Origin: Nocardioides piscis
Lineage (GTDB): Bacteria > Actinomycetota > Actinomycetes > Propionibacteriales > Nocardioidaceae
DNA length: 64,000 nt
Assembly (NCBI RefSeq): GCF_011300215.1
Contig: NZ_CP049866.1
Coordinates: 1,984,001-2,048,000 of the forward strand
Direction of reading: 5' to 3'
This document shows positions 5,707-26,492 of the stretch, piece by piece. Position 1 is the stretch's first letter. The number at the start of each line of letters is the position of its first letter. The notes beneath the pieces are model-generated. The model did no database searches, had not been told where the DNA came from, and was given only the letters and a program-made list of their open reading frames with translations. The position numbers and the translations under genes were made by a program.

Positions 5707-8700
5707 GTGACTGTCTCCCTGCGCGTGATGTCAGCCGGCTCCGGCTACCAGTACCTGCTCAGGAGCGTGGCCGCCGGTGACGGCAACAGGCAGCTCTCAA
5801 CGCCTCTCACGAGGTACTACACCGAGGCGGGTACGCCGCCCGGCCGCTGGCTCGGGTCGGGACTCCACGCGCTCGGCAATGGGGAGATCCGCCACGGCGA
5901 TGTCGTGGGCGAGCAGCAGCTCGCGTTGCTTCTGGGTACGGGCAGCGATCCGGTGACTGGCCAGCCGCTCGGACGCGCGTTTCCAGTGCACGACGCGAAG
6001 GCCGATGAGTACGGCTCCAATGCTCGGCTCTCCGCCCGCAGGGCCGTCGCCGGGTACGACCTGACGTTCAGCGTCCCGAAGTCGGTGTCGGCTCTCTGGG
6101 GCGTGGCAGATGAGGGCACCCAAGCCTTGATCGTCGAGGCTCATCACCGCGCGGTGGCCGACGTCATGGATCTTGTCGAGCGCGAGGTCGCCGCCACCCG
6201 TCGAGGCGTCAGCGCGGGCAGCGGCGCCGTCGCCCAAGCCGACGTGGTCGGTGTGATCGCGACCGCCTTCGACCACTGGGACTCACGTCTCGGCGACCCG
6301 CAGCTCCACACTCACGTCGTCGTCTCGAACAAGGTCCGGACGACCGAGGACGGGCGGTGGCGCAGCCTGGACGGGCGCCCCCTCCACGCGTCGGTCGTCG
6401 CCCTGTCGGAGCATTACAACGCTGTGCTGGCTGACCGGCTCACACGCGCATTCGGAGTCGAGTGGGAACAGCGAACCCGCGGCGACAACCGGTCGTCCTC
6501 CTGGGAACTGGTGCCTGTGCCGGACGAACTGGTCCACGAGTTCTCCTCCCGATCACGCGGCATCGAACTGGAGACTGACCGCCTCGTCGAGGCGTACGTC
6601 CGCGAGCACGGAGGGCGCCCGTCCTCCGCCGCCATCATCCGGTTCAGAGCCATGGCGACTCTGTCGACGCGGCCCGAGAAGACCATCCGATCCCTGGCGG
6701 ATCTCACGGAGGAGTGGCGAGGACGGGCGGGTCAGATCCTTGGGACGGGCGCCCCCCAATGGGCGCGCCGGGTCACAGGACCGACGGGCGCCCGTCCTCA
6801 TCCCGCAGGGCTACTGCGCGCCGATGACATCCCGCAGGAGGCAGTCGACGAGGTCGCCGTGGCAGTCGTCGGATCCGTCAGCGAGAAACGGTCGACCTGG
6901 CGTCACTGGAACCTCTGGGCTGAGGCCTCACGCCAGACGATGGGATGGAGATTCCAGAGCGCCGACGACCGCGAGCATGTCGTCGGGCTGATCGTCGCCG
7001 AGGCCAAGGACCGGTCGGTCATGCTGACCCCACCCGATCTCGCGCCGGTTCCGGAGATGTTCCGCCGCACGGACGGCACCTCGCGATTCCGGCCGCACCA
7101 CTCGACCACGTACTCGTCGGCGGATCTGCTGGCCGCCGAGGACAGGCTCCTCGAACTGAGCCGCTTCACGGACGCGCCCTTTGTCGGCGCCGATCGAGTC
7201 GCCCGAGCCGCTCCCACGGAGGACGGTCAACACCCTCTCAGCGAGAGCCAGGCCGACGCTCTCGCGAAGGTCAGCACCTCTGGGCGTCAACTCGACTTAC
7301 TCGTTGGCCCGGCCGGTGCGGGGAAGACCACGGCCATGCACGCTCTCCAACGGGCCTGGCGCGCCGAGCACGGGCGCGACAGCGTCCTCGGTCTCGCGCC
7401 GAGCGCGGTGGCAGCCCAGGTCCTGGCTGAAGACCTCGGCATCGAATGCGAGAACACCGCCAAGTGGCTACATGAGTACGACCGCGGGCGAGTCGGATTG
7501 CACGCCGGCCAACTCGTGATCATCGACGAGGCGACCCTCGCCGGCACCCTGACGCTTGACCGGATCAGCCGAACCGCGGCCGAGGCTGGCGCCAAGGTGC
7601 TGCTGGTCGGCGACTGGGCCCAACTCCAGTCGGTCGACGCCGGCGGTGCCTTCTCGCTGCTCGTCAGCGAACGGCCGGATGTCGCCGAACTGACCGACGT
7701 GCATCGGTTCGTCAGCGAGTGGGAGCGCGAGGCGTCGCTCGATCTCCGCTTCGGACGCAGCGAGGTCATCGGCGTGTACGCCGAACATGACCGTCTGAAG
7801 GAAGGAACGACGGATGAGATGACGGACGCCGCGTACGCCGCCTGGCGCGCCGACACCAGGTCCGGCCGATCCAGCGTGCTCGTCACGGAGGCAGCGCGGT
7901 CCGTCCTCGAGCTCAACAAGCGGGCCCGGGCCGAGCGGATCCTCGACGGCGACACTCGGGCCAGCACCGAGGTCCGGCTCGTCGACGGAAGCCACGCCTC
8001 GGAAGGCGACCTCATCATCACCCGACGCAATGACCGGCGGCTCAAGCCGCTGCGAGGCGGCTGGGTCCGAAATGGCGACCGGTGGCAGATTCTGAGTGTC
8101 GGTAGGGACGGCTCCGCCGAGGTGCGCAGGGTCTCCGGCACCGGACACGGCACCGTCAGGCTGCCAGCGTCGTACGTCGCCGAACACGTCGACCTCGGGT
8201 ACGCCGTCACCGCTCATCGCGCCCAGGGCATAACGGTCGATACCTCACATGTCGTCGTCGCCGGCAACACCACTCGCGAGAACCTCTACGTCTCGATGAC
8301 CCGGGGGCGCGAGTGCAACACCGCGTACGTCGCGCTCGACCAACCGGACGACAGCCACGCCGCTCCCGAGCCCGACGAGGTGACTGCCCGAACGGTTATC
8401 TACGGCGTCCTCCAACACTCGGGTGTTGAGTTGTCCGCCCATCAAACGATCCGTACTGAGCAGGATGCCTGGAGCTCGATCGCCCAGTTGGCCGCTGAGT
8501 ACGAAACCATCGCGGCCGCCGCTCAACGAGACCGTTGGGTCGAACTGCTCGATCGCTCGGGACTCACGCGCCAACAGGTTGACGACGTCGTCCAGTCGGA
8601 CTCCTTCGGTCCACTGACGGCCGAGCTTCGACGAGCCGAGGCGAACCACTACGACCTCGACCTCGTCCTGCCGTCGGTTGTCGGGAGGCGGGGCTTCGGT

Positions 8701-9189
8701 GATGCCGTCGACGTCGGCGCCGTCCTCATGAGTCGCATCAGCCACGAGACCGGGCGTGCCCGTCGCGGGAAGCGCAGCGCCGAGCCCAACCTCATCGCCG
8801 GGCTGGTCCCGGCGACCGACGGTCCGATGGCGAGGGACATGGCGGACGCGCTGCGAGAGCGAGCTCACCTCATCGAGGATCGAGCACTTGCGCTCGCCGC
8901 ATCTGCGGTCGAAACCGATGCAGGATGGCTCAAGCGGCTCGGCGCGGCACCCGAGGACGACGCTGAGCGGCGGCGGTGGATGCGTGAGGTCGCGACTGTC
9001 GCCGCTTACCGCGACCGCTACGGGATCTCTGCTCGAAGGGCGCTCGGCGAAGAACCCGCGACGATGGCCCAACGCCGTGACGCCGGTCGAGCTGAACAAG
9101 CCATTCGCCGGGCACGGTCCACCTCGAAGGCTGAGGCCGCCAAGATCGATCACAACAGGGTGCTCCGACGCGCCGCTTCGATCGCGTAG
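5707..9189 (+). CDS. MobF-family conjugative relaxase-helicase (TrwC/TraI-like)
   Basis: Nicks DNA at oriT and unwinds the transferred strand during conjugation. The 1160-residue protein has an N-terminal TrwC relaxase domain with candidate catalytic tyrosines in RYYTE (about residues 36-40). The three-histidine metal site is seen in FDHWDSRLGDPQLHTH (188-203). A RecD-like helicase follows, with Walker A GPAGAGKTT near 533 and Walker B VIIDEATL near 604. The late motifs are TAHRAQG near 835 and ENLYVSMTRGRE near 858. The GTG start has a good Shine-Dalgarno 9 bases upstream. It diverges from the pilus operon, so transfer DNA processing and a pilus-like machine sit back to back. No coupling protein or VirB-type genes are in the window. 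Confidence 0.93.
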   Translation: MTVSLRVMSAGSGYQYLLRSVAAGDGNRQLSTPLTRYYTEAGTPPGRWLGSGLHALGNGEIRHGDVVGEQQLALLLGTGSDPVTGQPLGRAFPVHDAKADEYGSNARLSARRAVAGYDLTFSVPKSVSALWGVADEGTQALIVEAHHRAVADVMDLVEREVAATRRGVSAGSGAVAQADVVGVIATAFDHWDSRLGDPQLHTHVVVSNKVRTTEDGRWRSLDGRPLHASVVALSEHYNAVLADRLTRAFGVEWEQRTRGDNRSSSWELVPVPDELVHEFSSRSRGIELETDRLVEAYVREHGGRPSSAAIIRFRAMATLSTRPEKTIRSLADLTEEWRGRAGQILGTGAPQWARRVTGPTGARPHPAGLLRADDIPQEAVDEVAVAVVGSVSEKRSTWRHWNLWAEASRQTMGWRFQSADDREHVVGLIVAEAKDRSVMLTPPDLAPVPEMFRRTDGTSRFRPHHSTTYSSADLLAAEDRLLELSRFTDAPFVGADRVARAAPTEDGQHPLSESQADALAKVSTSGRQLDLLVGPAGAGKTTAMHALQRAWRAEHGRDSVLGLAPSAVAAQVLAEDLGIECENTAKWLHEYDRGRVGLHAGQLVIIDEATLAGTLTLDRISRTAAEAGAKVLLVGDWAQLQSVDAGGAFSLLVSERPDVAELTDVHRFVSEWEREASLDLRFGRSEVIGVYAEHDRLKEGTTDEMTDAAYAAWRADTRSGRSSVLVTEAARSVLELNKRARAERILDGDTRASTEVRLVDGSHASEGDLIITRRNDRRLKPLRGGWVRNGDRWQILSVGRDGSAEVRRVSGTGHGTVRLPASYVAEHVDLGYAVTAHRAQGITVDTSHVVVAGNTTRENLYVSMTRGRECNTAYVALDQPDDSHAAPEPDEVTARTVIYGVLQHSGVELSAHQTIRTEQDAWSSIAQLAAEYETIAAAAQRDRWVELLDRSGLTRQQVDDVVQSDSFGPLTAELRRAEANHYDLDLVLPSVVGRRGFGDAVDVGAVLMSRISHETGRARRGKRSAEPNLIAGLVPATDGPMARDMADALRERAHLIEDRALALAASAVETDAGWLKRLGAAPEDDAERRRWMREVATVAAYRDRYGISARRALGEEPATMAQRRDAGRAEQAIRRARSTSKAEAAKIDHNRVLRRAASIA

Positions 9190-17659: not shown

Positions 17660-20461
17660 GTGGATCGTGATCGCGGGGCGCACTTCCACCGGGCGGACTT
17701 CCAGGTTCACACGCCGAGGGATGGGCAGTGGAAGGGAAAGAAGCCAGTCTCTGATGACGACCGCGCGGCCTATGCGCAGTCGTTCGTCGCTGCCTGCCGC
17801 CGGATCGGGCTGAACGCGGTCGCGATCACCGACCACCACGACCTCGTGTTTGCTCCGTTCATCCGACGGGCTGCCGCAGAGGAACTGGACGAACACGGCG
17901 AGCACTACTCGCCCGCCCAGCGTCTGACGGTGTTCCCTGGTGTGGAACTCACATTGGCTCTCGCCCGACAGGCGCTCCTCATACTCGACGCCGACTTCCC
18001 AGATGATCGGCTGCCGTCGGTCCTCCAGGCTCTCGCGATTACCCCGCACGATCCGACCGCAGCAACCCTCCCCGACGTGAAGCCGCTGGATCACATCACC
18101 TCTCTGGCAGACCTGCACAAGAAGCTCGACGAGCACGATTGGCTGAAGGGCCGTTACATCGTCTTGCCTAACGCCAGCGACAGCGGCCACAAGACGATCA
18201 TGCGCAAGGGCATGCAGGCTGAGTACAAGGACATGCCCTGCGTGGGCGGCTACCTGGACGGCTCAGTCGACAAGATCGGGACGGGCAACCAGCGTATTTT
18301 CGCCGGTGTGGATGCCTCGTGGGGAAACAAGCCGCTCGCCATTTTCCAGACGTCCGATGCCCGATCCGAGGACTTCGCAAGCCTGGGTGCACCTTCGACT
18401 TGGGTTAAGTGGGCCGAGCCGACCGGCGAAGCGCTTCGGCAGGCATGCCTGGGACATCAATCCCGCATCGCGCATGTCGTCCCTCAGATTCCGACCGTCT
18501 TCATTTCACGGATCACCGTTTCCAACAGCAAGTTCCTTGGGCCCGTCGATGTCGTTTTCAACTCGCAGTACAACGCCATCATCGGTGGCCGAGGGACCGG
18601 TAAGTCAACGATCCTCGACTACGTCCGATGGGGACTGTGCGACCAAGCGGCGCAGGCGGGCGACGAGGAGTTGGCGAACCCGACGGTTCGGCGCGAACGG
18701 CTGATCGAGAACACCCTCAAGCCTGTTGGCGGCCAGGTCGAGGTCTTCTTCACCATCAACGAGATCCCCCATGTGGTGCGTCGTGACGCGGCCACGGGTG
18801 AGATCCAGTTGAAGGTCGGAGAGGAAGACTTCGCAAAGGTTCGAGAAGAGCACGTCCGATCGCTTCTGCCGGTCCACGCCTACAGTCAGAAGCAGTTGAG
18901 CAGCGTGGCGCTGCGGATGGATGAGTTAACGCGCTTCGTGACCGCGCCGGTGCAGCGATCGCTTGACAGCATCGACCAGCGGGTCGCGGAGTCGGCCGGC
19001 AAGTTGCGCGAGAACTACGCCAAGGTGCAACGGGCTCGCGAGCTGGACTCGTCCGTATCGCGCCAACAGTTGACCGAGCGATCACTTGCAGAGCAGGCAG
19101 CCAACCTGCGTGGAGCCCTCACCGATCTGTCCGAGGAGGATCGCGCCACACTCAGCGCGAAGCCACAGTTTGATTCGGTTCGGGAGTCCCTCGTCTCACA
19201 GGAGCGTGAGCTGCAGGACGCCTTCGCACAAGCGAACGCCGTAGTGGAGCGGCTTGGCGTTGTGCAGACCAACCTTGACGTCCCTGCCGATGTCCCTGCT
19301 GACATTGCTGATGCGGTTGCCGCCTTGGCCGCCGCTCGACAGCAGTTGATCCAGAACCTCCAGGGCGCCATTTCTGAGGCACTCAACACAGCGGCGTCTG
19401 CGCGCACCGAAGGGGCTGCGGAGCACGCCGCAGCAGTCACGATCAGCGAGGCCATCAGTTCGTTTAACGAGCGCTACGAGGAGGTCAAACGTCGCTCGAG
19501 TGCACACCAGGCCAAGTTGGATGAACTCGCAGGGGTCGAGGATCGCCGAACCCAGGCCGCCGGGCTGCTGGCTACTCACAAGCGCGATCGCCAGGCGATC
19601 GGGGATCCATTCAAGGCGCACACCGAGCTACGTGGCGAGCTGATCGCCCAGTACCGAGAGCGATCCGAACTGCTCAGCGAGGAAACAGCACGGCTGACTG
19701 GGCTATCAGAGGGGCTCTTGAGGGCAAGTATCAACCTGGGTCAGGGACTCGCACCCGTTGAAGAGCGATTCCGAGGTTACATTCAAGGATCCGGCGTTCG
19801 GGGCGGCAAGATCGACCAGCTGTTCGCCGGCCTTCGTGGAGAGACCGACCCACTCGGTACCTGGGAACTTGTTCTCACGGAGTTGGAGAGTCTTCTCCGG
19901 CTGGAAGCGGACGCCGTCCACACCTCAGAAACGACCCCCATTCTCACCCGTCTGGGCTTCCCGCTTGTTGACCAGCAGCGAGCGAGGACTCGCATGACGG
20001 CTGACGGGTGGTTGGATCTCGCCCTGACGCCGATTCGAGACGAGCCTCTCTTCGAGTACCAAACCAAGGAGAACGAGTTCATTGCGTTCAGTGCAGCCTC
20101 GGCTGGACAACAGGCGACGGCGCTGCTTCGGGTTCTACTGGCGCAGACCGGCGTGCCGCTGATCATCGACCAGCCCGAGGAAGACCTCGACAGTCAGGTC
20201 GTGCAGGACGTCGTGACCCGGATCTGGTCTGCCAAACAGAAGCGCCAACTGATCTTCGCGAGCCACAACGCCAACCTGGTGGTGAACGGCGATGCCGAAC
20301 TTGTCATTGCCTTCGACTACCGCAAACAGGGCGACCAGTCGGGCGGCCGGGTAAAGCTCGAGGGCGCGATCGACGTACCGGCAGTCCGGGACGAGATCAC
20401 TCGTGTCATGGAGGGCGGGGAAAAGGCGTTCAGGCTCCGTAAGGAGCGCTACGGGTTCTGA
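17660..20461 (+). CDS. PHP-domain/SMC-like ATPase, TrlF family
   Basis: A 933-residue protein joining an N-terminal PHP-type phosphoesterase domain (FHRADFQVHTP; AITDHHD near residue 56) to an SMC/RecN-like ATPase. Walker A GGRGTGKST lies near residue 309. A long coiled coil covers about 440-700, and the Walker B region IIDQPEEDLDSQ near 834 and SHNANLVV near 866 close the ATPase. This is the layout of TrlF-type AAA-like ATPases, which recur beside type I RM systems and probably act as defence nucleases. The GTG at 17660 is the only plausible start after an in-frame stop at 17636-17638. It is preceded by a weak CTGGAG site. Confidence 0.8.
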   Translation: MDRDRGAHFHRADFQVHTPRDGQWKGKKPVSDDDRAAYAQSFVAACRRIGLNAVAITDHHDLVFAPFIRRAAAEELDEHGEHYSPAQRLTVFPGVELTLALARQALLILDADFPDDRLPSVLQALAITPHDPTAATLPDVKPLDHITSLADLHKKLDEHDWLKGRYIVLPNASDSGHKTIMRKGMQAEYKDMPCVGGYLDGSVDKIGTGNQRIFAGVDASWGNKPLAIFQTSDARSEDFASLGAPSTWVKWAEPTGEALRQACLGHQSRIAHVVPQIPTVFISRITVSNSKFLGPVDVVFNSQYNAIIGGRGTGKSTILDYVRWGLCDQAAQAGDEELANPTVRRERLIENTLKPVGGQVEVFFTINEIPHVVRRDAATGEIQLKVGEEDFAKVREEHVRSLLPVHAYSQKQLSSVALRMDELTRFVTAPVQRSLDSIDQRVAESAGKLRENYAKVQRARELDSSVSRQQLTERSLAEQAANLRGALTDLSEEDRATLSAKPQFDSVRESLVSQERELQDAFAQANAVVERLGVVQTNLDVPADVPADIADAVAALAAARQQLIQNLQGAISEALNTAASARTEGAAEHAAAVTISEAISSFNERYEEVKRRSSAHQAKLDELAGVEDRRTQAAGLLATHKRDRQAIGDPFKAHTELRGELIAQYRERSELLSEETARLTGLSEGLLRASINLGQGLAPVEERFRGYIQGSGVRGGKIDQLFAGLRGETDPLGTWELVLTELESLLRLEADAVHTSETTPILTRLGFPLVDQQRARTRMTADGWLDLALTPIRDEPLFEYQTKENEFIAFSAASAGQQATALLRVLLAQTGVPLIIDQPEEDLDSQVVQDVVTRIWSAKQKRQLIFASHNANLVVNGDAELVIAFDYRKQGDQSGGRVKLEGAIDVPAVRDEITRVMEGGEKAFRLRKERYGF

Positions 20462-20768: not shown

Positions 20769-22085
20769 GTGGAGTTCGCCGAGTATCAGACGGTCGTTAC
20801 CGCGTTCCAAGGGGAGTTCGACACGGCACACGAACTCGTGCCGCTTCTCGGGACGGGTGCGCACGCGGGAGCGATTTTGGACGCTCAGCAGAGATTCTTA
20901 CGCGACCGAGTATCTGCGCCAGGTCGAACCCGTGCGATCGAGCGAGCCCTGGGTCGCCTGGTGCGTTGGTGTGCGGTAGTCGCGAATCAGAATGGCTTGG
21001 AACTTAACCTGATCGCGCACGCCAACCTACGCAAGGTCGATCGGCGGCATCGAGAGCTGGGACTCTCCGGAATCACCGCACTGGTCCCAGATATGGGCAC
21101 TGCACTCACGTTCTCGACCTACAGTCGGCTCGCGGCGGAGACGGACCAGGACATTGGAGTGGGCTCTGATCCGCTCGAGTTGAGCGTGCCGTTGCTAGGT
21201 ATGGCAGGCGAGGTCGGAAGCCTGTTTCTCGAGCAGAAGAAGCGTTACCGAGGTGACAGCGAGCGCGAAGACTGGCCGGCCTTCATCGCCGAAGAACTGG
21301 GCGACCTCCTTTGGTATGTCTCGGCGGTATGCCGGCATCTGGGATCGGACCTCGACGTCGTGATGCAGAGCGACGCGGACCGGCTGCAGGGCATGGAGTT
21401 CGCGGGCGCTACCAAGAGATTTCTGACCTTCGACGAGGACGCCCCGCTTGACGAACGGTTCCCTCGGCAACTTCAACTCCGCTTTGTTGAAAGCCAAGAG
21501 AGCGGCGAACCAGTCGTGACGATGATCCTTCGAGACGCCGTCCCGAATGCCTTTCCCGACGGCGCGATCCCACTGCCGAACGACAAATGGAAGGGCTACA
21601 CCGCAGGGGAACGACTGGGCGACCCGGTCAACGACAACTCCCACTCCAGCGACGCCTACCGCTATCACGACGCCATCCACCTCGGGTTCCTTGCCGTGCT
21701 CCAGTGGTCACCCAACCTGCGCAGCCTCCTGAAGGTGAAACGAAAGTTCGACCCGAAGATCGACGATGCCGAGGACGGTGCCCGCGCGATCTTTGCAGAG
21801 GAAGGGCTGGCTGCGATCCTGGCCAAGCAGGCCTTCGTCAACGACAACTACCTCGATGTGCGGAAGGTCCCCGAAGAACTACTGGAACTCATCGCCAGCG
21901 TGACCGACGACCTAGAAGTGTCTGTGCTTCCGTTGTGGCTCTGGGCCGAGGCGATCTGTCAGGGCTTCGCGGTGCTGGGAGCGCTCGCCCGAAATCGTGG
22001 CGGGTTCGTGTTGGCGGACTTGGACGCCGGCCACCTGAAATACTCCAAGACCCCTTTCACTATGCGGGATGGTGCTGATGAGTAA
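20769..22085 (+). CDS. MazG-like nucleotide pyrophosphohydrolase with C-terminal domain
   Basis: Probably hydrolyses a (modified) nucleoside triphosphate to the monophosphate. With the GTG start chosen from the strong upstream GGGGAGGTGGG, the protein is 438 residues. The MazG fold is seen in GEVGSLFLEQKKR (about 147-159) and AEELGDLLWYVS (about 174-185), giving the EExxE/ExxD metal-site pattern. A second helical part follows (RYHDAIHLGFLAVLQW; EEGLAAILAKQAFVND), resembling the C-terminal extension of MazG proteins found in phage and DNA-modification operons. It overlaps the next gene by 8 or 17 bases, so the two are coupled. The exact substrate is unknown. Confidence 0.8.
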   Translation: MEFAEYQTVVTAFQGEFDTAHELVPLLGTGAHAGAILDAQQRFLRDRVSAPGRTRAIERALGRLVRWCAVVANQNGLELNLIAHANLRKVDRRHRELGLSGITALVPDMGTALTFSTYSRLAAETDQDIGVGSDPLELSVPLLGMAGEVGSLFLEQKKRYRGDSEREDWPAFIAEELGDLLWYVSAVCRHLGSDLDVVMQSDADRLQGMEFAGATKRFLTFDEDAPLDERFPRQLQLRFVESQESGEPVVTMILRDAVPNAFPDGAIPLPNDKWKGYTAGERLGDPVNDNSHSSDAYRYHDAIHLGFLAVLQWSPNLRSLLKVKRKFDPKIDDAEDGARAIFAEEGLAAILAKQAFVNDNYLDVRKVPEELLELIASVTDDLEVSVLPLWLWAEAICQGFAVLGALARNRGGFVLADLDAGHLKYSKTPFTMRDGADE

Positions 22086-22872
22086 GTCGGATCCTGACGT
22101 CCGACCGCCGAACCCTCCGTGGCAGCCTCTAGTCGACAAGGGCGGGGGCTACCTGTCGGTCTATCTGAACGACCCTCTCGCGCGCTGGCCGGTGCGCGAG
22201 ATCACCAAGCCAGCCGACAACAAGAGCGACCCCAACATCGAGACAGGCAGCTACGGCCTGTTCTCCACCTGCGAGCCATCGATGCGCAAGGCGATCGTGG
22301 CTCGCGGTGCGAGTTCCATTTTCTTCATGACAACACGTGAAGGGGTGCGCTGGCTGACCGGTTACTACCACATCGGGTGGTACGCACCTGGAGTGCGCGG
22401 GGCTAGCCGCGGGGACTATGCGCTAGCAGCCGACGTCATCAGATTCGTCGATCCCATCGACCCCCGAACTCTCTCGCAACCGGCGAAGGCGGCGCTTCTC
22501 GTGAAGTTCCGCACCCAGAAGCCGATCGATGCTCAGATCGTCAATCAGCTGCGTAACGAGATCGATGGTCGGGACTCGCGAACCGACGAATACATCGGTG
22601 AAGTTGCACGGCTCGAGCAGTTCTCGCGCGAGCACTCAGAGTTCGCGTATCCCTCGTGGGGCCGCGAGGCCGGGTTTAACTGGTCAGACGCCGCCACCTA
22701 TCTGCCCCTGGATGATGCAACCCCGGCGGTCGATACTCCCAACAGCAGCCCCACCGGACGCTGGCGCTGCGGCAGTTGCGATCGGATCGTCGAAAACAAG
22801 GCATTGTTGAAGAGGTGCCCGGCCTGCGGTGAAACCGGAACACTCACACCCGAACTCGGCGGTGAGGGCTGA
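22078..22872 (+). CDS. Unrecognised protein with C-terminal zinc ribbon
   Basis: No named family recognised. The roughly 264-residue protein has an N-terminal globular domain (SYGLFSTCEPSMRKAI; TREGVRWLTGYYHIGWYA). Its alternating strands loosely recall PUA/EVE/ASCH-type nucleic-acid or base-sensing folds, but that is a guess. The C-terminus is a classic zinc ribbon (CGSCDRIVENKALLKRCPAC, CxxC-x14-CxxC). ATG 22078 overlaps the MazG stop; ATG 22069 is an in-frame alternative. Its stop overlaps the TIR gene start (TGATG), so the three genes form one operon. Confidence 0.75.
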   Translation: MSKSDPDVRPPNPPWQPLVDKGGGYLSVYLNDPLARWPVREITKPADNKSDPNIETGSYGLFSTCEPSMRKAIVARGASSIFFMTTREGVRWLTGYYHIGWYAPGVRGASRGDYALAADVIRFVDPIDPRTLSQPAKAALLVKFRTQKPIDAQIVNQLRNEIDGRDSRTDEYIGEVARLEQFSREHSEFAYPSWGREAGFNWSDAATYLPLDDATPAVDTPNSSPTGRWRCGSCDRIVENKALLKRCPACGETGTLTPELGGEG

Positions 22873-23330
22873 TGCGTCGGGTCTTCCTGTCCTATCAGCA
22901 CCGCGATCAGATGCGAGCCAAGGGCTTCAACCTGATGTCCTACAACAAGAACCTCAAACTGGATTTCTCGGTTCGCCACCTGGTGGACCCGGTCAAGAGC
23001 TCGGACCAACAGTACATCTCGCGAAAGATCAAGGAGCAGCTCAAGTACACCAGCGCAACGGTGGTCCTCATTGGAAAGGACACAGCCAAGAGCGATTGGG
23101 TGGCGCGCGAGATCGAGTGGAGCCGTGAGAAGGGCAACGCGATCGTCGGGATCCAGATTGACCCAGGTGCTGAAGTTCCGGCGGGCCTGCTCGAAGCAGG
23201 CGCTGAGATCCTTGATTGGAACAAGCCCGCCGACGTCGCCCAGTTCGGCCCAGCGGTTGAGCGCGCCGTCAAAGGGACAACAAGAGGTCAGAACATGCCT
23301 CGAAACTCGATCAGCCACTGCTCGCGTTGA
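22872..23330 (+). CDS. TIR-domain protein (ThsB-like/DUF1863 type)
   Basis: A 152-residue single-domain TIR protein. The opening MRRVFLSYQHRDQ is the TIR strand A and BB-loop start. The motif SDWVAREIEWS (residues 74-84) holds the likely catalytic Glu80, followed by the strand NAIVGIQID. Small TIR proteins of this type are the sensing/cyclising partner in Thoeris and related abortive-infection systems, where they make an NAD-derived signal or deplete NAD. It is the third gene of the MazG operon. Its last 20 bases overlap the convergent DUF4231 gene. No ThsA-like effector with a SLOG or SIR2 domain was seen nearby. Confidence 0.85.
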   Translation: MRRVFLSYQHRDQMRAKGFNLMSYNKNLKLDFSVRHLVDPVKSSDQQYISRKIKEQLKYTSATVVLIGKDTAKSDWVAREIEWSREKGNAIVGIQIDPGAEVPAGLLEAGAEILDWNKPADVAQFGPAVERAVKGTTRGQNMPRNSISHCSR

Positions 23331-24186
23331 GCACGCCGTTCCGAGCGCACCACATGACGTGCTCGCGGGAAATGGCCTCTTCGGCCTCGCTGACCACTCG
23401 CGGCCAGGACTCTTCATCTGCGCGACTGGCCAGTGAACTCGCCATCCCCAGTTCCTGGCAGGTCAGCGCGTAAGCGCTCGCGTTGATGGTGTGCTGCCGC
23501 AGCTGCGACTCGGCCACCAAGGCCGCGCCGAGCGCTGCGAATACGCCGAGGAGGTCAATCGAGATCACCATCTGCGCGCGGAGCACGCCGAGGACGAGAC
23601 CGACAATCGAGCTCGCGACGGCGCCGCCAATGAGTTGCTTCGCGCGCTTTCGATGGAAAGTGGCCTTGCCTGCGTACCAACCACGTTGATCCTCGATACG
23701 TCCCAGGACATACGCGTCCCGCCGTTCCTCAAACGTGGAAGCGCGGAGTTCGCGCATTCGGGCTGTGATCTGCTCACCGGTTGCTGCCTGAGTATCGACC
23801 TGGCTGAGTTCGCGGACGATTTGGCGCAGGCGGTCGATGAAGGTTTGGTCGACGTCCGCGGCGTCGATCGGGAACGGGTCGGCGCCCGTTGCGTAACTCC
23901 ACGTGAGCGACTTCACCGACTCGGCGGCAGCGCGGCCCTGGTACCAGGCCTCGGCGGGGCGGCGAAAAGCAAGCAGCAGCGCTAGGGCGCTTGAAGTCAG
24001 GAACGCGACCACCGAAACCCACCCCATGGCGTCCTGCGAACCGACCTTCCAAGTGACAGCACCTGCCAGGGCGCCGATGGTCAGCATCACCAGATACCAC
24101 CGCGTCTGCAGGAACGTGTTGTCCCGGCCCGTGGTCGACGTTGTGCTGGCGAACGTGTATAGGGACGGGTAGTCACTGTCTGCCAT
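23311..24186 (-). CDS. DUF4231/SLATT-like multi-TM protein
   Basis: A predicted 291-residue membrane protein with two hairpins of TM helices: about residues 28-70 (RWYLVMLTIGALAGAV and SVVAFLTSSALALLLAF) and about 180-225 (LIGGAVASSIVGLVLG and LLGVFAALGAALV). The central soluble part is helical and charged. This is the plan of DUF4231 proteins, related to the SLATT effectors that permeabilise membranes in nucleotide-signalling defence. ATG 24186 is chosen because GGAG lies 9 bases upstream; ATG 24234 is an in-frame alternative. It is convergent with the TIR gene and overlaps it by 20 bases. Confidence 0.75.
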   Translation of the reverse strand: MADSDYPSLYTFASTTSTTGRDNTFLQTRWYLVMLTIGALAGAVTWKVGSQDAMGWVSVVAFLTSSALALLLAFRRPAEAWYQGRAAAESVKSLTWSYATGADPFPIDAADVDQTFIDRLRQIVRELSQVDTQAATGEQITARMRELRASTFEERRDAYVLGRIEDQRGWYAGKATFHRKRAKQLIGGAVASSIVGLVLGVLRAQMVISIDLLGVFAALGAALVAESQLRQHTINASAYALTCQELGMASSLASRADEESWPRVVSEAEEAISREHVMWCARNGVLNASSG

Positions 24187-24349
24187 CACAGGTGGCTCCG
24201 GGTCAGGAGTAACCGCATCATTCCGTCCGAACATGATCGAGATGGTATCGGCCACAGTTGGGAGTCCAGGGCAGCGTCGACGGCCGTCGCATCGGACCCG
24301 CGGATCACGGGTCCCGGTTCTGGAGCCTCGCACGCCATAGGATCGATAC

Positions 24350-25333
24350 GTGGTGAAGACAGAGCCGACCCCTCGAACCGAGGCGTTCGATCTCTACTGG
24401 CGCTTCACGGCTGAACGTCACAATTCATTCGAGAAGCGACTTGCAGGTGAACCTGGGCCCTGGAGTGATGACGAGATCATCCAGACGTACAAGTTCTGCA
24501 ACGTCTTCAGAGCTGCGGACCGGGTATCTCAGTACCTGATTCGCGAGGTCGCTTACCACGCCGAGCCTTGCTCGTTTCACGACCGCGTGTTCCAGATCGT
24601 GGCGTTTCGAACGTTCAGCAAGATCGAGACCTGGGAGTCGATCCGGTTGCTACTTGGCCGCCACCCGACCCTGGAAGACCTGGCCGATGGATCCTTCGCC
24701 CGTGCCCTAGACGAAGCACGTGCGACTAACGGCGGCCTATACACCGGCGCATTCATCTTGTGTGCCACGGACGCCTACGGGCAGCGCCTTAAGCACCGCA
24801 ACCACGTCGAACTCTTTCGGCACATGTTCCTGACTGGATCCCTCGATGACGATGTCCTGCAAGCATGCTCGCTTGAAGAGGTCTTCCTGCTTCTTCGTAG
24901 GTTCCCGCTCATGGGTGACTTCATGTCCTACCAGGTCGCTGTCGATCTCAACTACTCAGAACTCATCAACTTTAGTGAGAACGACTTCACCCGGCCCGGA
25001 CCTGGAGCGCTGCGTGGCATCAAAAAGTGCTTTGTGTCGCTGGGCGACTACACGCCAACGGAGATCATCCACTGGATGGTCGAACGCCAGGTCATCGAAT
25101 TTGACCGTCTTGGCCTTGCGTTCAACGGGCTGTGGGGTAGGCCCCTGCACGCGATCGACGCGCAGAACCTTTTCTGTGAGACAGATAAGTACTGCCGAGT
25201 CGCGCTGCCCGAGCTGACGAGTGCGCGCACACGCATCAAGTCGCGATTCAATCCCCGATCGGATCCGATCTCGATGTTCTTCCCACCCAAATGGCAGCTC
25301 GCAGCCTCTGCCACTGAATTAGCAATGGTCTAA
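24350..25333 (+). CDS. 5-hmdU-DNA-kinase-type helical domain protein
   Basis: The 327-residue protein matches the helical domain family known from phage 5-hydroxymethyluracil DNA kinases and annotated as nucleotide kinase domain or DNA base hypermodification protein. Recognisable segments are FDLYWRFTAERHNSFEKR, TYKFCNVFRAADRVSQYL and HRNHVELFRHMF. No P-loop (GxxxxGKS/T) is present, so this is the helical part alone without the phage kinase domain. It begins with tandem GTG codons and is divergent from the DUF4231 gene. It belongs to the same cassette as the MazG-like and TIR genes, suggesting surveillance or handling of modified bases. Confidence 0.72.
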   Translation: MVKTEPTPRTEAFDLYWRFTAERHNSFEKRLAGEPGPWSDDEIIQTYKFCNVFRAADRVSQYLIREVAYHAEPCSFHDRVFQIVAFRTFSKIETWESIRLLLGRHPTLEDLADGSFARALDEARATNGGLYTGAFILCATDAYGQRLKHRNHVELFRHMFLTGSLDDDVLQACSLEEVFLLLRRFPLMGDFMSYQVAVDLNYSELINFSENDFTRPGPGALRGIKKCFVSLGDYTPTEIIHWMVERQVIEFDRLGLAFNGLWGRPLHAIDAQNLFCETDKYCRVALPELTSARTRIKSRFNPRSDPISMFFPPKWQLAASATELAMV

Positions 25334-25399: not shown

Positions 25400-25478
25400 C
25401 TTGCCTCCTCATGAGGGGTCGCCGGTGACCCGGCACCCGGTCCCGTGGCGGTGGGGGAGACGCCGCTACGACGGCGCC

Positions 25479-26492
25479 ATGACCAACCTCCTGACCGCCG
25501 CCCTGCCGGCCACCGCCATAGTTGCGCCCACCCCCGACCTCGACCTGCTGCCCGCCGGACTCACCGACCTCGACACCGCCCGCATCAGCTCGGCCATCGC
25601 GGCCGCCCGCACCGAGTCCACCCGCCGCCTCTACGCCCTGGTCTGGGCGCAATGGGAACGCTGGTGCGCCGCGCGCGGGATCGGTGCACTGCCCGCTGAC
25701 CCGCTCGCGCTGTGCGCCTACCTCACCGAGCGCGCCGAAGCCGGCAAGGCCACCGGCACCCTCGACATGGCCTGCACCGTCATCCGGCACGTCCACCGCA
25801 CCTGCGGCATCACCGACCCGGTCGACTCCGAGGCCGTCCGCCAGGTACGGCGCGGGCTGCGCCGCACCCACGGTGCCGCACCACGCCGACTCGCTCGGCC
25901 GCTCTCGGTGCAGGAGATCCGCCAGATCGTCGGCTGCATCGACCGCAGCACACCCATCGGCATTCGCGACGCCGCGATCATCCTGCTCGGTTTCGCCTCC
26001 GCGATGCGCCGCGCCGAGCTCGTCGCACTCCACCTCGCCGACGTCGAGCACAAGCCCGCCGGCCTGCTGCTCACCATCCGCCAGTCCAAGACCGACCAAG
26101 AAGGACACGGCCAGAGCGTCGCCGTCGCCCACGGCCAACACGCCCTCACCGACCCAGTCGCCGCCCTCAACGCCTGGCGAGCCGTACGCGGCGACGCCCC
26201 CGGCGCCCTGTTCACCCGGATCTGGGCCACCAAGGTCAGCCTGGAACCGCTCTCGGGTCACGTGCCCGCCCGCATGCTCCGCGCCCGAGCCGTTGCCGCC
26301 GGCCTCGACGGCACCCGGATCACCGCCCACTCCCTGCGCGCCGGACACGCCACCACTGCGGCGCTGGCCGGAGTCCCACTGCACCGGATCGCCGCCCAGA
26401 CCCGGCACAAGGACCTCACCGTCCTCGTCAACCGCTACATCCGCCCACTCGAAGCCCTCGCGCACACCTCTAGCAAGCATCTCGGCCTGTGA
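25479..26492 (+). CDS. Tyrosine recombinase (phage-type integrase)
   Basis: Site-specific recombinase of 337 residues. The N-terminal SAM-like DNA-binding half (STRRLYALVWAQWERWCAA) is followed by the catalytic domain. The catalytic set is visible: first Arg in ASAMRRAEL, HSLRAGH, the second His in QTRHKDL, and the Tyr nucleophile in NRYIRP. The ATG is at GCGCCATGACC; the longer upstream frame lacks homology. It is closely similar along its whole length to the recombinase at 56582. No tRNA-like att sequence was seen directly upstream, unlike the other two recombinases here. It opens the metal/sulfur island. Confidence 0.9.
   Translation: MTNLLTAALPATAIVAPTPDLDLLPAGLTDLDTARISSAIAAARTESTRRLYALVWAQWERWCAARGIGALPADPLALCAYLTERAEAGKATGTLDMACTVIRHVHRTCGITDPVDSEAVRQVRRGLRRTHGAAPRRLARPLSVQEIRQIVGCIDRSTPIGIRDAAIILLGFASAMRRAELVALHLADVEHKPAGLLLTIRQSKTDQEGHGQSVAVAHGQHALTDPVAALNAWRAVRGDAPGALFTRIWATKVSLEPLSGHVPARMLRARAVAAGLDGTRITAHSLRAGHATTAALAGVPLHRIAAQTRHKDLTVLVNRYIRPLEALAHTSSKHLGL

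Follow-up and report, generated by a model that had tools for sequence, protein, structure and literature searches.

How does the TIR protein of a five-gene cassette in Nocardioides piscis recognise that its cell is infected? Infection recognition by bacterial TIR immune proteins is, to our knowledge, largely unknown. The cassette was analysed in a window of 64,000 nucleotides (nt; contig NZ_CP049866.1 of GCF_011300215.1, positions 1,984,001 to 2,048,000, forward strand). It comprises, in this order, genes for a MazG-like protein with a MazG_C domain, a zinc-ribbon protein (ZnR), a ThsB-type TIR protein, a SLATT membrane protein and an HMUDK_hel protein. The very arrangement of these genes points to thymidine chemistry as the source of the trigger of the TIR protein. 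This chemistry is known mainly as a weapon of phages. Judged from sequence, the cassette looks like a virus-defence system of actinobacteria and a haloarchaeal plasmid. Our tentative reading, to which we give slightly less than an even chance, is a Thoeris-like abortive-infection (suicide) system with a trigger coupled to modified thymidine. If true, it is thymidine chemistry that sets off a suicide alarm in bacteria and in an archaeon. The five genes named in the initial annotation were confirmed by Pfam and a coordinate check at the following positions of the window.

20769..22085, plus strand: MazG-like protein with MazG_C, 438 amino acids, GTG start (PF18722, 2e-52; PF03819, 1e-4)
22069..22872, plus strand: ZnR, zinc-ribbon protein; no Pfam family above cut-off, weak rubredoxin-like C-terminal match
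22872..23330, plus strand: ThsB-type TIR protein, putative NAD-cleaving signal maker, 152 amino acids (PF08937, 5e-20)
23316..23327, plus strand: codons for the C-terminal His-Cys-Ser-Arg of TIR (conserved C-x-R)
23311..24333, minus strand: SLATT_3 and SLATT_1 membrane protein, putative effector, 340 amino acids (PF18184, 2.5e-41; PF18181, 2.5e-28; PF14015 (DUF4231), 2e-13)
24350..25333, plus strand: HMUDK_hel protein without kinase domain, with a fold like that of glycosylases and phage 5-phosphomethyl-dU glycinyltransferase (PUGT), 327 amino acids, GTG start (5e-97)

The tight coupling claimed for the first three genes was borne out by their overlaps. MazG and ZnR share 17 nt, or 8 nt if ZnR begins at ATG 22078, and ZnR and TIR share 1 nt. 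The TIR and SLATT genes overlap tail to tail by 20 nt. The start of the SLATT gene may lie downstream, for example at 24255 or 24234.

Recurrence was assessed from ZnR, whose family comprises at least 396 database proteins. A ZnR profile was built from the window protein and 22 relatives (alignment A1), and loci were sought with two peptide patterns in 84,980 species genomes. Loci were clipped at 10-kb flanks and genes in unannotated loci were called with a simple open reading frame picker. Eighteen further ZnR loci were obtained, one in a Chloroflexi bin and 17 in actinobacteria, including Terracoccus, Promicromonospora, Micropruina, Isoptericola, Brevibacterium and Microbacterium. They are not independent: L004 to L014, L016 and L018 are closely alike, and L009 and L010 have identical match scores. 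A ThsB-type TIR gene lay after ZnR in all 18 loci, with L020 holding only a fragment of ZnR at a contig end. SLATT followed in 12/18 loci and HMUDK_hel was close by in 14/18. Of the loci without HMUDK_hel, three (L014, L017 and L020) are cut off by a contig end on the side in question; 16.4 kb of L019 yielded none. A plasmid of the archaeon Natronomonas gomsonensis carried HMUDK_hel, ZnR (33.5% identity), an unknown protein of 191 amino acids, DUF4231 and ThsB_TIR as neighbours. The initial annotation had conceded that genes which rarely co-occur elsewhere would form a chance cluster; the set recurs, even in an archaeon. Among 72,556 plasmids, ZnR was found in a single record. Among 296 genomes of the phylum it was found in this genome only; where candidate counts are shown, at most eight candidates per genome were scored and misses are possible. 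Ten stretches of viral contigs fitted a pattern and none was confirmed as ZnR.

A survey not centred on ZnR drew on 396 genomes, a single set from the phylum to which the window belongs. HMUDK_hel was carried by six genomes, MazG_C by five, Nmad2 by two and ThsB_TIR by 32. All five MazG_C genes and both Nmad2 genes were located within 5 kb of HMUDK_hel. A ThsB TIR gene was present within 3.3 kb of HMUDK_hel in three of the six genomes, 50 kb away in a fourth (G237) and absent from two. Chance was estimated at 8e-11 for MazG_C being nested among the genomes with HMUDK_hel and at 7e-9 for TIR beside HMUDK_hel. Both estimates ignore the general clustering of defence genes; 41 TIR matches were entered in the latter, where the listing shows 40.

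The place of MazG proved to be an exchangeable enzyme slot. Thirteen of the 18 loci carried genes for thymidylate-synthase-like (TS-like) and kinase-like proteins instead, one (L015) combined the TS-like gene with a TylF-type methyltransferase, and two (L003 and L017) had MazG_C. No enzyme was seen in L019 or in L020, which is cut by the contig end. MazG as a member of the set, as first annotated, holds for the window and two loci and not for the 13. The TS-like protein of the relatives was closest to nucleotide 5-hydroxymethylase. Neither TS nor dNMP kinase genes were detected among the window proteins scanned with Pfam. By sequence, the MazG-like protein is a possible nucleotide pyrophosphohydrolase. 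MazG proteins have an ExxE motif; its fourth residue was Ser or Thr in 8/9 aligned relatives, and ExxD was kept in 9/9 (alignment A4). Just upstream of the cassette in L003 (6233-7451), an 8xMP membrane protein adjoins a nucleoside-deoxyribosyltransferase-like protein (below cut-off), perhaps another defence pair.

HMUDK_hel had been described as a helical protein of the hmdU-kinase type. The helical domain stands (PF18723, residues 10-290 of 327), but the protein is not a kinase by itself, as no P-loop kinase domain was found with Pfam. Structure was predicted for two proteins, HMUDK_hel and ZnR. The HMUDK_hel model showed a fold common to DNA glycosylases, DUF2419 and PUGT, and its closest folds included a queuine salvage enzyme solved with queuosine-5′-monophosphate. 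A search of the PDB by sequence gave no match. PUGT acts on DNA. The ZnR body was modelled with a YTH-like fold, with a weak match to the YTH readers of modified bases, and its C-terminal rubredoxin-like zinc ribbon has four Cys that were invariant in 23 aligned sequences. ZnR is a putative reader of a modified base according to this model. A remote relationship to Nmad2 was rejected (hhalign probability 0.2 percent; no Nmad match in Pfam). Despite the failed profile comparison, a short aligned stretch of ZnR and Nmad2 has the common motif PN...TC-[EK]-P-x-[MI]-R.

Beyond the ZnR loci, HMUDK_hel was found with other partners. It occurred with TIR and Nmad2 in G347, G263 and plasmids of Rhizobium beringeri, Sinorhizobium chiapasense and Parabacteroides. 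In these loci, TIR was identified as ThsB by Pfam in three and annotated as TIR in two, and Nmad2 was identified by Pfam in four and by alignment in L036. A SLOG cluster 2 protein and a TIR-like protein of 435 amino acids lie between them in G347. A helix-turn-helix (HTH) and ImmA/IrrE pair accompanied HMUDK_hel on plasmids of Allocoleopsis, Haloarcula, Streptomyces (three), Sinorhizobium fredii and Rhizobium ruizarguesonis; nearby annotations include an acyl-carrier protein or phosphopantetheine enzyme. This HTH, ImmA/IrrE and HMUDK_hel set of bacteria and a haloarchaeon is a candidate for a further defence system. It was also seen with TS, kinase, dCTP deaminase or MazG-type genes (L038, L040, L041, L045, L048, L049 and L050). 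Fifteen of 21 plasmid records with HMUDK_hel were examined: four were of the TIR type, including the archaeal ZnR type, seven of the HTH and ImmA/IrrE type and four of neither. The last four were two plasmids with DNA polymerase III subunit genes and those of Mycobacterium intracellulare and Acinetobacter. On the sphingomonad plasmids (L046 and L047), HMUDK_hel adjoins genes of the exonuclease/epsilon type and for DNA polymerase III alpha. A methyltransferase lies close by, and this setting suggests a role in plasmid DNA modification or replication. In the Acinetobacter plasmid (L043, 6980-7932), it is annotated in two pieces and perhaps broken. As its varied partners across genomes and plasmids show, HMUDK_hel is a core component that combines with several gene sets. 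It is exchanged between them: the window protein was 60% identical to that of the Rhizobium Nmad2 locus L036, compared with 41% for the protein of L003, a locus with the gene set of the window.

The TIR protein matched ThsB in PADLOC (6e-19) and had the TIR 8fz9 and ThsB1 9b7d as relatives in the PDB. The Glu of its V-x-x-E motif was kept in 15/15 aligned sequences, and the protein is a putative NAD-cleaving signal maker. Its C-terminus was unusually constant. All 19 TIR proteins adjoining ZnR, from the window and the 18 loci, end in Cys-x-Arg, and the archaeal TIR ends in CGRS. Among 104 TIR relatives found by sequence, regardless of gene neighbours, 94 had C-x-R no more than two residues from the end, preceded by Met-Pro-x-Asn-Ser in about 58 and by Gly/Ser-rich sequence in others. 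Of the remaining ten, six contained a Cys among their six final residues; the other four, short proteins of 107-122 amino acids, had none there. The five Nmad2-linked TIRs had a Cys within the last three residues. None of 18 other ThsB TIRs, fetched from 40 matches among genomes of the phylum, had a Cys in the last five residues. In the second TIRs of L005 and L012 (see below), the fourth-last residue was a Cys; the second TIRs of L019, L036 and L037 (two) lacked Cys throughout the last eleven residues. The tail as a by-product of overlap with the next start codon was ruled out, because it persists with an overlapping (L004), a separated (L005) or a convergent next gene (window, L003 and L017), as well as in the archaeal locus (L044), and its Cys and Arg codons differ among these loci.

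The tail might serve as a handle. The PUGT-like HMUDK_hel would join, or ZnR or Nmad2 would hold, the C-terminal Cys at an activated 5-hydroxymethyl-dU nucleotide or DNA site, tethering the alarm enzyme to modified thymidine. TIR would be freed or activated once a phage broke down or replaced that DNA or depleted that nucleotide. We consider this a long shot. If true, a TIR immune protein would be controlled via a modified nucleobase, a form of control not met in the literature searched. Tails of EcThsB2 and ThsB subfamily 9 fold back on the TIR domain and tailless variants are insoluble, according to excerpts of PMC11204291, a text in which the word cysteine is absent. The conserved Cys-x-Arg tail offers a one-residue test of TIR control.

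The multi-transmembrane DUF4231 protein of the initial annotation was retained in a narrower form. It has SLATT/DUF4231 domains, with two or three hydrophobic segments (simple scan) in two tandem SLATT domains, and is a putative membrane effector. TIR adjoins the SLATT gene in the window, 12/18 relatives and the archaeal locus. In the six loci without SLATT (L005, L008, L011, L012, L018 and L020), a second TIR gene lies some 2 kb downstream. In the three of them that were inspected (L005, L012 and L020), a protein of 647 amino acids lies between both TIR genes and, with the second TIR, takes the place of SLATT. The protein of L005, the only one scanned with Pfam, has a TPR-S domain; its N-terminal part is SLOG-like by eye only. 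In Kocuria palustris (L016, 6533-7627), a CHAT-domain protein lies directly 3′ of SLATT. The exchange of MazG, synthase with kinase, or synthase with methyltransferase, and of SLATT or TPR-S with TIR, provides natural variants for comparison.

The analysis establishes gene content, recurrence, slot exchange, domains, folds at the strengths given above and conserved residues with the tail. For the coupling of an abortive-infection system to modified thymidine, we infer substrate, trigger, activation, signal and killing as follows. HMUDK_hel, with its glycosylase/PUGT fold, would act on deoxyuridine modified at position 5, either within DNA or as a nucleotide, and MazG would trim the nucleotide pool. 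Most relatives would instead make the modified nucleotide with a dUMP-hydroxymethylase-like enzyme and a P-loop kinase. ZnR, combining a YTH-like reader with a zinc ribbon, would sense the modified base or its disturbance in infection and switch on the adjacent TIR. TIR would cleave NAD+ and yield an ADP-ribose-type signal, which SLATT, or elsewhere the TPR-S protein and second TIR, would answer by membrane damage. The initial annotation had proposed the detection of modified nucleotides or bases of phages. A link to modified thymidine is supported by the TS-like and kinase-like genes replacing MazG, by the HMUDK_hel fold and, weakly, by the ZnR fold. The phage origin of the trigger did not hold up as well: a host-made modified nucleotide is at least as likely, because 14/18 relatives carry their own synthase-like gene.

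The modification genes could also mark the cell's own DNA. Hypermodified thymine would then be borne by the host, and ZnR would silence TIR on marked DNA and release it once such DNA had been destroyed or phage DNA without the mark prevailed. The TS-like, kinase-like, methyltransferase and radical SAM genes near HMUDK_hel resemble a biosynthetic pathway, and HMUDK_hel has the PUGT-like fold of a 5-phosphomethyl-dU enzyme. Yet the window variant is without an obvious synthesis gene and none was found in L019, and we regard self-marking as unlikely. A guard of the nucleotide pool is quite unlikely. MazG_C, TS, kinase, dCTP deaminase and HMUDK_hel would watch or change the dUTP/dTTP pool and TIR would fire on a pool altered by phage, with no DNA base being read. 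Several of the alternative neighbours act in dUMP/dTMP metabolism, with one dihydrofolate reductase in addition, and the similarity of HMUDK_hel to a nucleotide-bound queuine salvage enzyme fits, but the YTH-like fold of ZnR and the methyltransferase and radical SAM partners are left unexplained. It is very unlikely that TIR and SLATT act as plain abortive infection, with TIR sensing a phage protein directly, as in capsid-sensing Thoeris, beside independent neighbours. TIR-SLATT neighbourhoods lacking the extra genes are described in excerpts of PMC9503650, Thoeris TIRs can sense capsids according to those of PMC12578639, and L019 has no detected HMUDK_hel. Against this stand the constant ZnR-TIR pair (18/18) and HMUDK_hel in 14/18 loci, with three of the four absences at contig ends. 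A chance cluster in a defence island, suggested by the TrlF, integrase and, by eye, type I restriction-modification (RM) genes around the cassette, is hardly credible, given that the set recurs in distant genera, in a Chloroflexi bin and in an archaeon and that 5/5 MazG_C genes lie near HMUDK_hel in the 396 genomes.

The following neighbours flank the cassette in the window.

17660..20461, plus strand: TrlF-family PHP/SMC-like ATPase, a separate defence-type neighbour (NF045780, 506 bits, cut-off 350)
25401..26492, plus strand: tyrosine recombinase adjoining the cassette, related to mobility and outside the system (PF00589, 4e-14)

The TrlF-family ATPase, which has a weaker match to anti-phage Ppl, sits between the cassette and three upstream genes read by eye as type I RM subunits. 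A YgjP-like peptidase was also detected upstream by Pfam. A large protein at 5707-9189, by eye a MobF-type relaxase/helicase, would fit a conjugative or mobilisable island. The G+C content was 0.60-0.63 at 10-26 kb, compared with 0.64-0.73 in flanking 2-kb windows, which fits an acquired island. TrlF and the type I RM genes were left out of the system, because TrlF, HsdR, HsdM and HsdS of the window as queries gave no match up to 6 kb from ZnR at any of the 18 loci. HsdS- and HsdM-like genes with 25-27% identity to those of the window directly adjoin the MazG_C gene in the Nmad2-type locus L034 (285-3013), which speaks against leaving RM out.

Among known systems, YTH/EVE readers have a fold that the predicted one of ZnR weakly resembles, but ZnR is not recognised by Pfam sequence search and has an added zinc ribbon. 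Thymidine hypermodification in the phages M6, ViI and PaMx11 shares the HMUDK_hel family, the PUGT-like fold and, according to excerpts of PMC6449724, the chemistry of 5-hydroxymethyl-dU (5hmdU), whereas the genes here are in chromosomes or plasmids with TIR and SLATT. DefensePredictor reported TS and 5-hydroxymethyluracil kinase as newly validated defence domains of E. coli (excerpts of PMC13092281, as for the rest of this comparison). There, dNMPk and NMAD share a figure legend with TS and 5hmdUk, whether of one operon or of several, and MazG, MazG-C, aGPT-Pplase and NMAD are listed as predicted, unvalidated defence domains, citing Burroughs 2015. Common to those systems and ours are the HMUDK-type protein and the TS and kinase pair of 13/18 relatives; the NMAD-like place is here filled by ZnR or Nmad2. 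TIR, Toll, Thoeris and SLATT do not occur in the main text of that paper, and the TS/dNMPk/5hmdUk/NMAD systems are absent from those analysed in its section 7. The set had initially been taken as undescribed. Its thymidine side is already in print, because PMC13092281 names TS, 5-hydroxymethyluracil kinase, MazG-C and NMAD. Neither the coupling of TIR, ZnR and SLATT nor the archaeal copy nor the Cys tail was met in the open literature searched. Burroughs 2015 reportedly treats SLATT, SLOG and related nucleotide systems and is the likeliest earlier description of the set. The TIR-SLATT neighbourhoods of firmicute phages also place TIR beside a SLATT membrane protein, sometimes with an HTH or zincin-like peptidase gene; thymidine-modification genes and ZnR are unnamed in the excerpts of PMC9503650. 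With Thoeris, the cassette shares a ThsB-type TIR with its Glu and a two-part logic of signal and effector. It differs in that SLATT, or the TPR-S protein and second TIR, replaces ThsA, and in the added ZnR, MazG, HMUDK_hel and C-terminal Cys-x-Arg tail. No ThsA with SIR2-SLOG or TM-macro was found in Pfam and PADLOC scans of eight proteins in and around the cassette. Because ThsA is missing, the cassette is by membership not a classical Thoeris but a TIR-SLATT system joined to a thymidine module.

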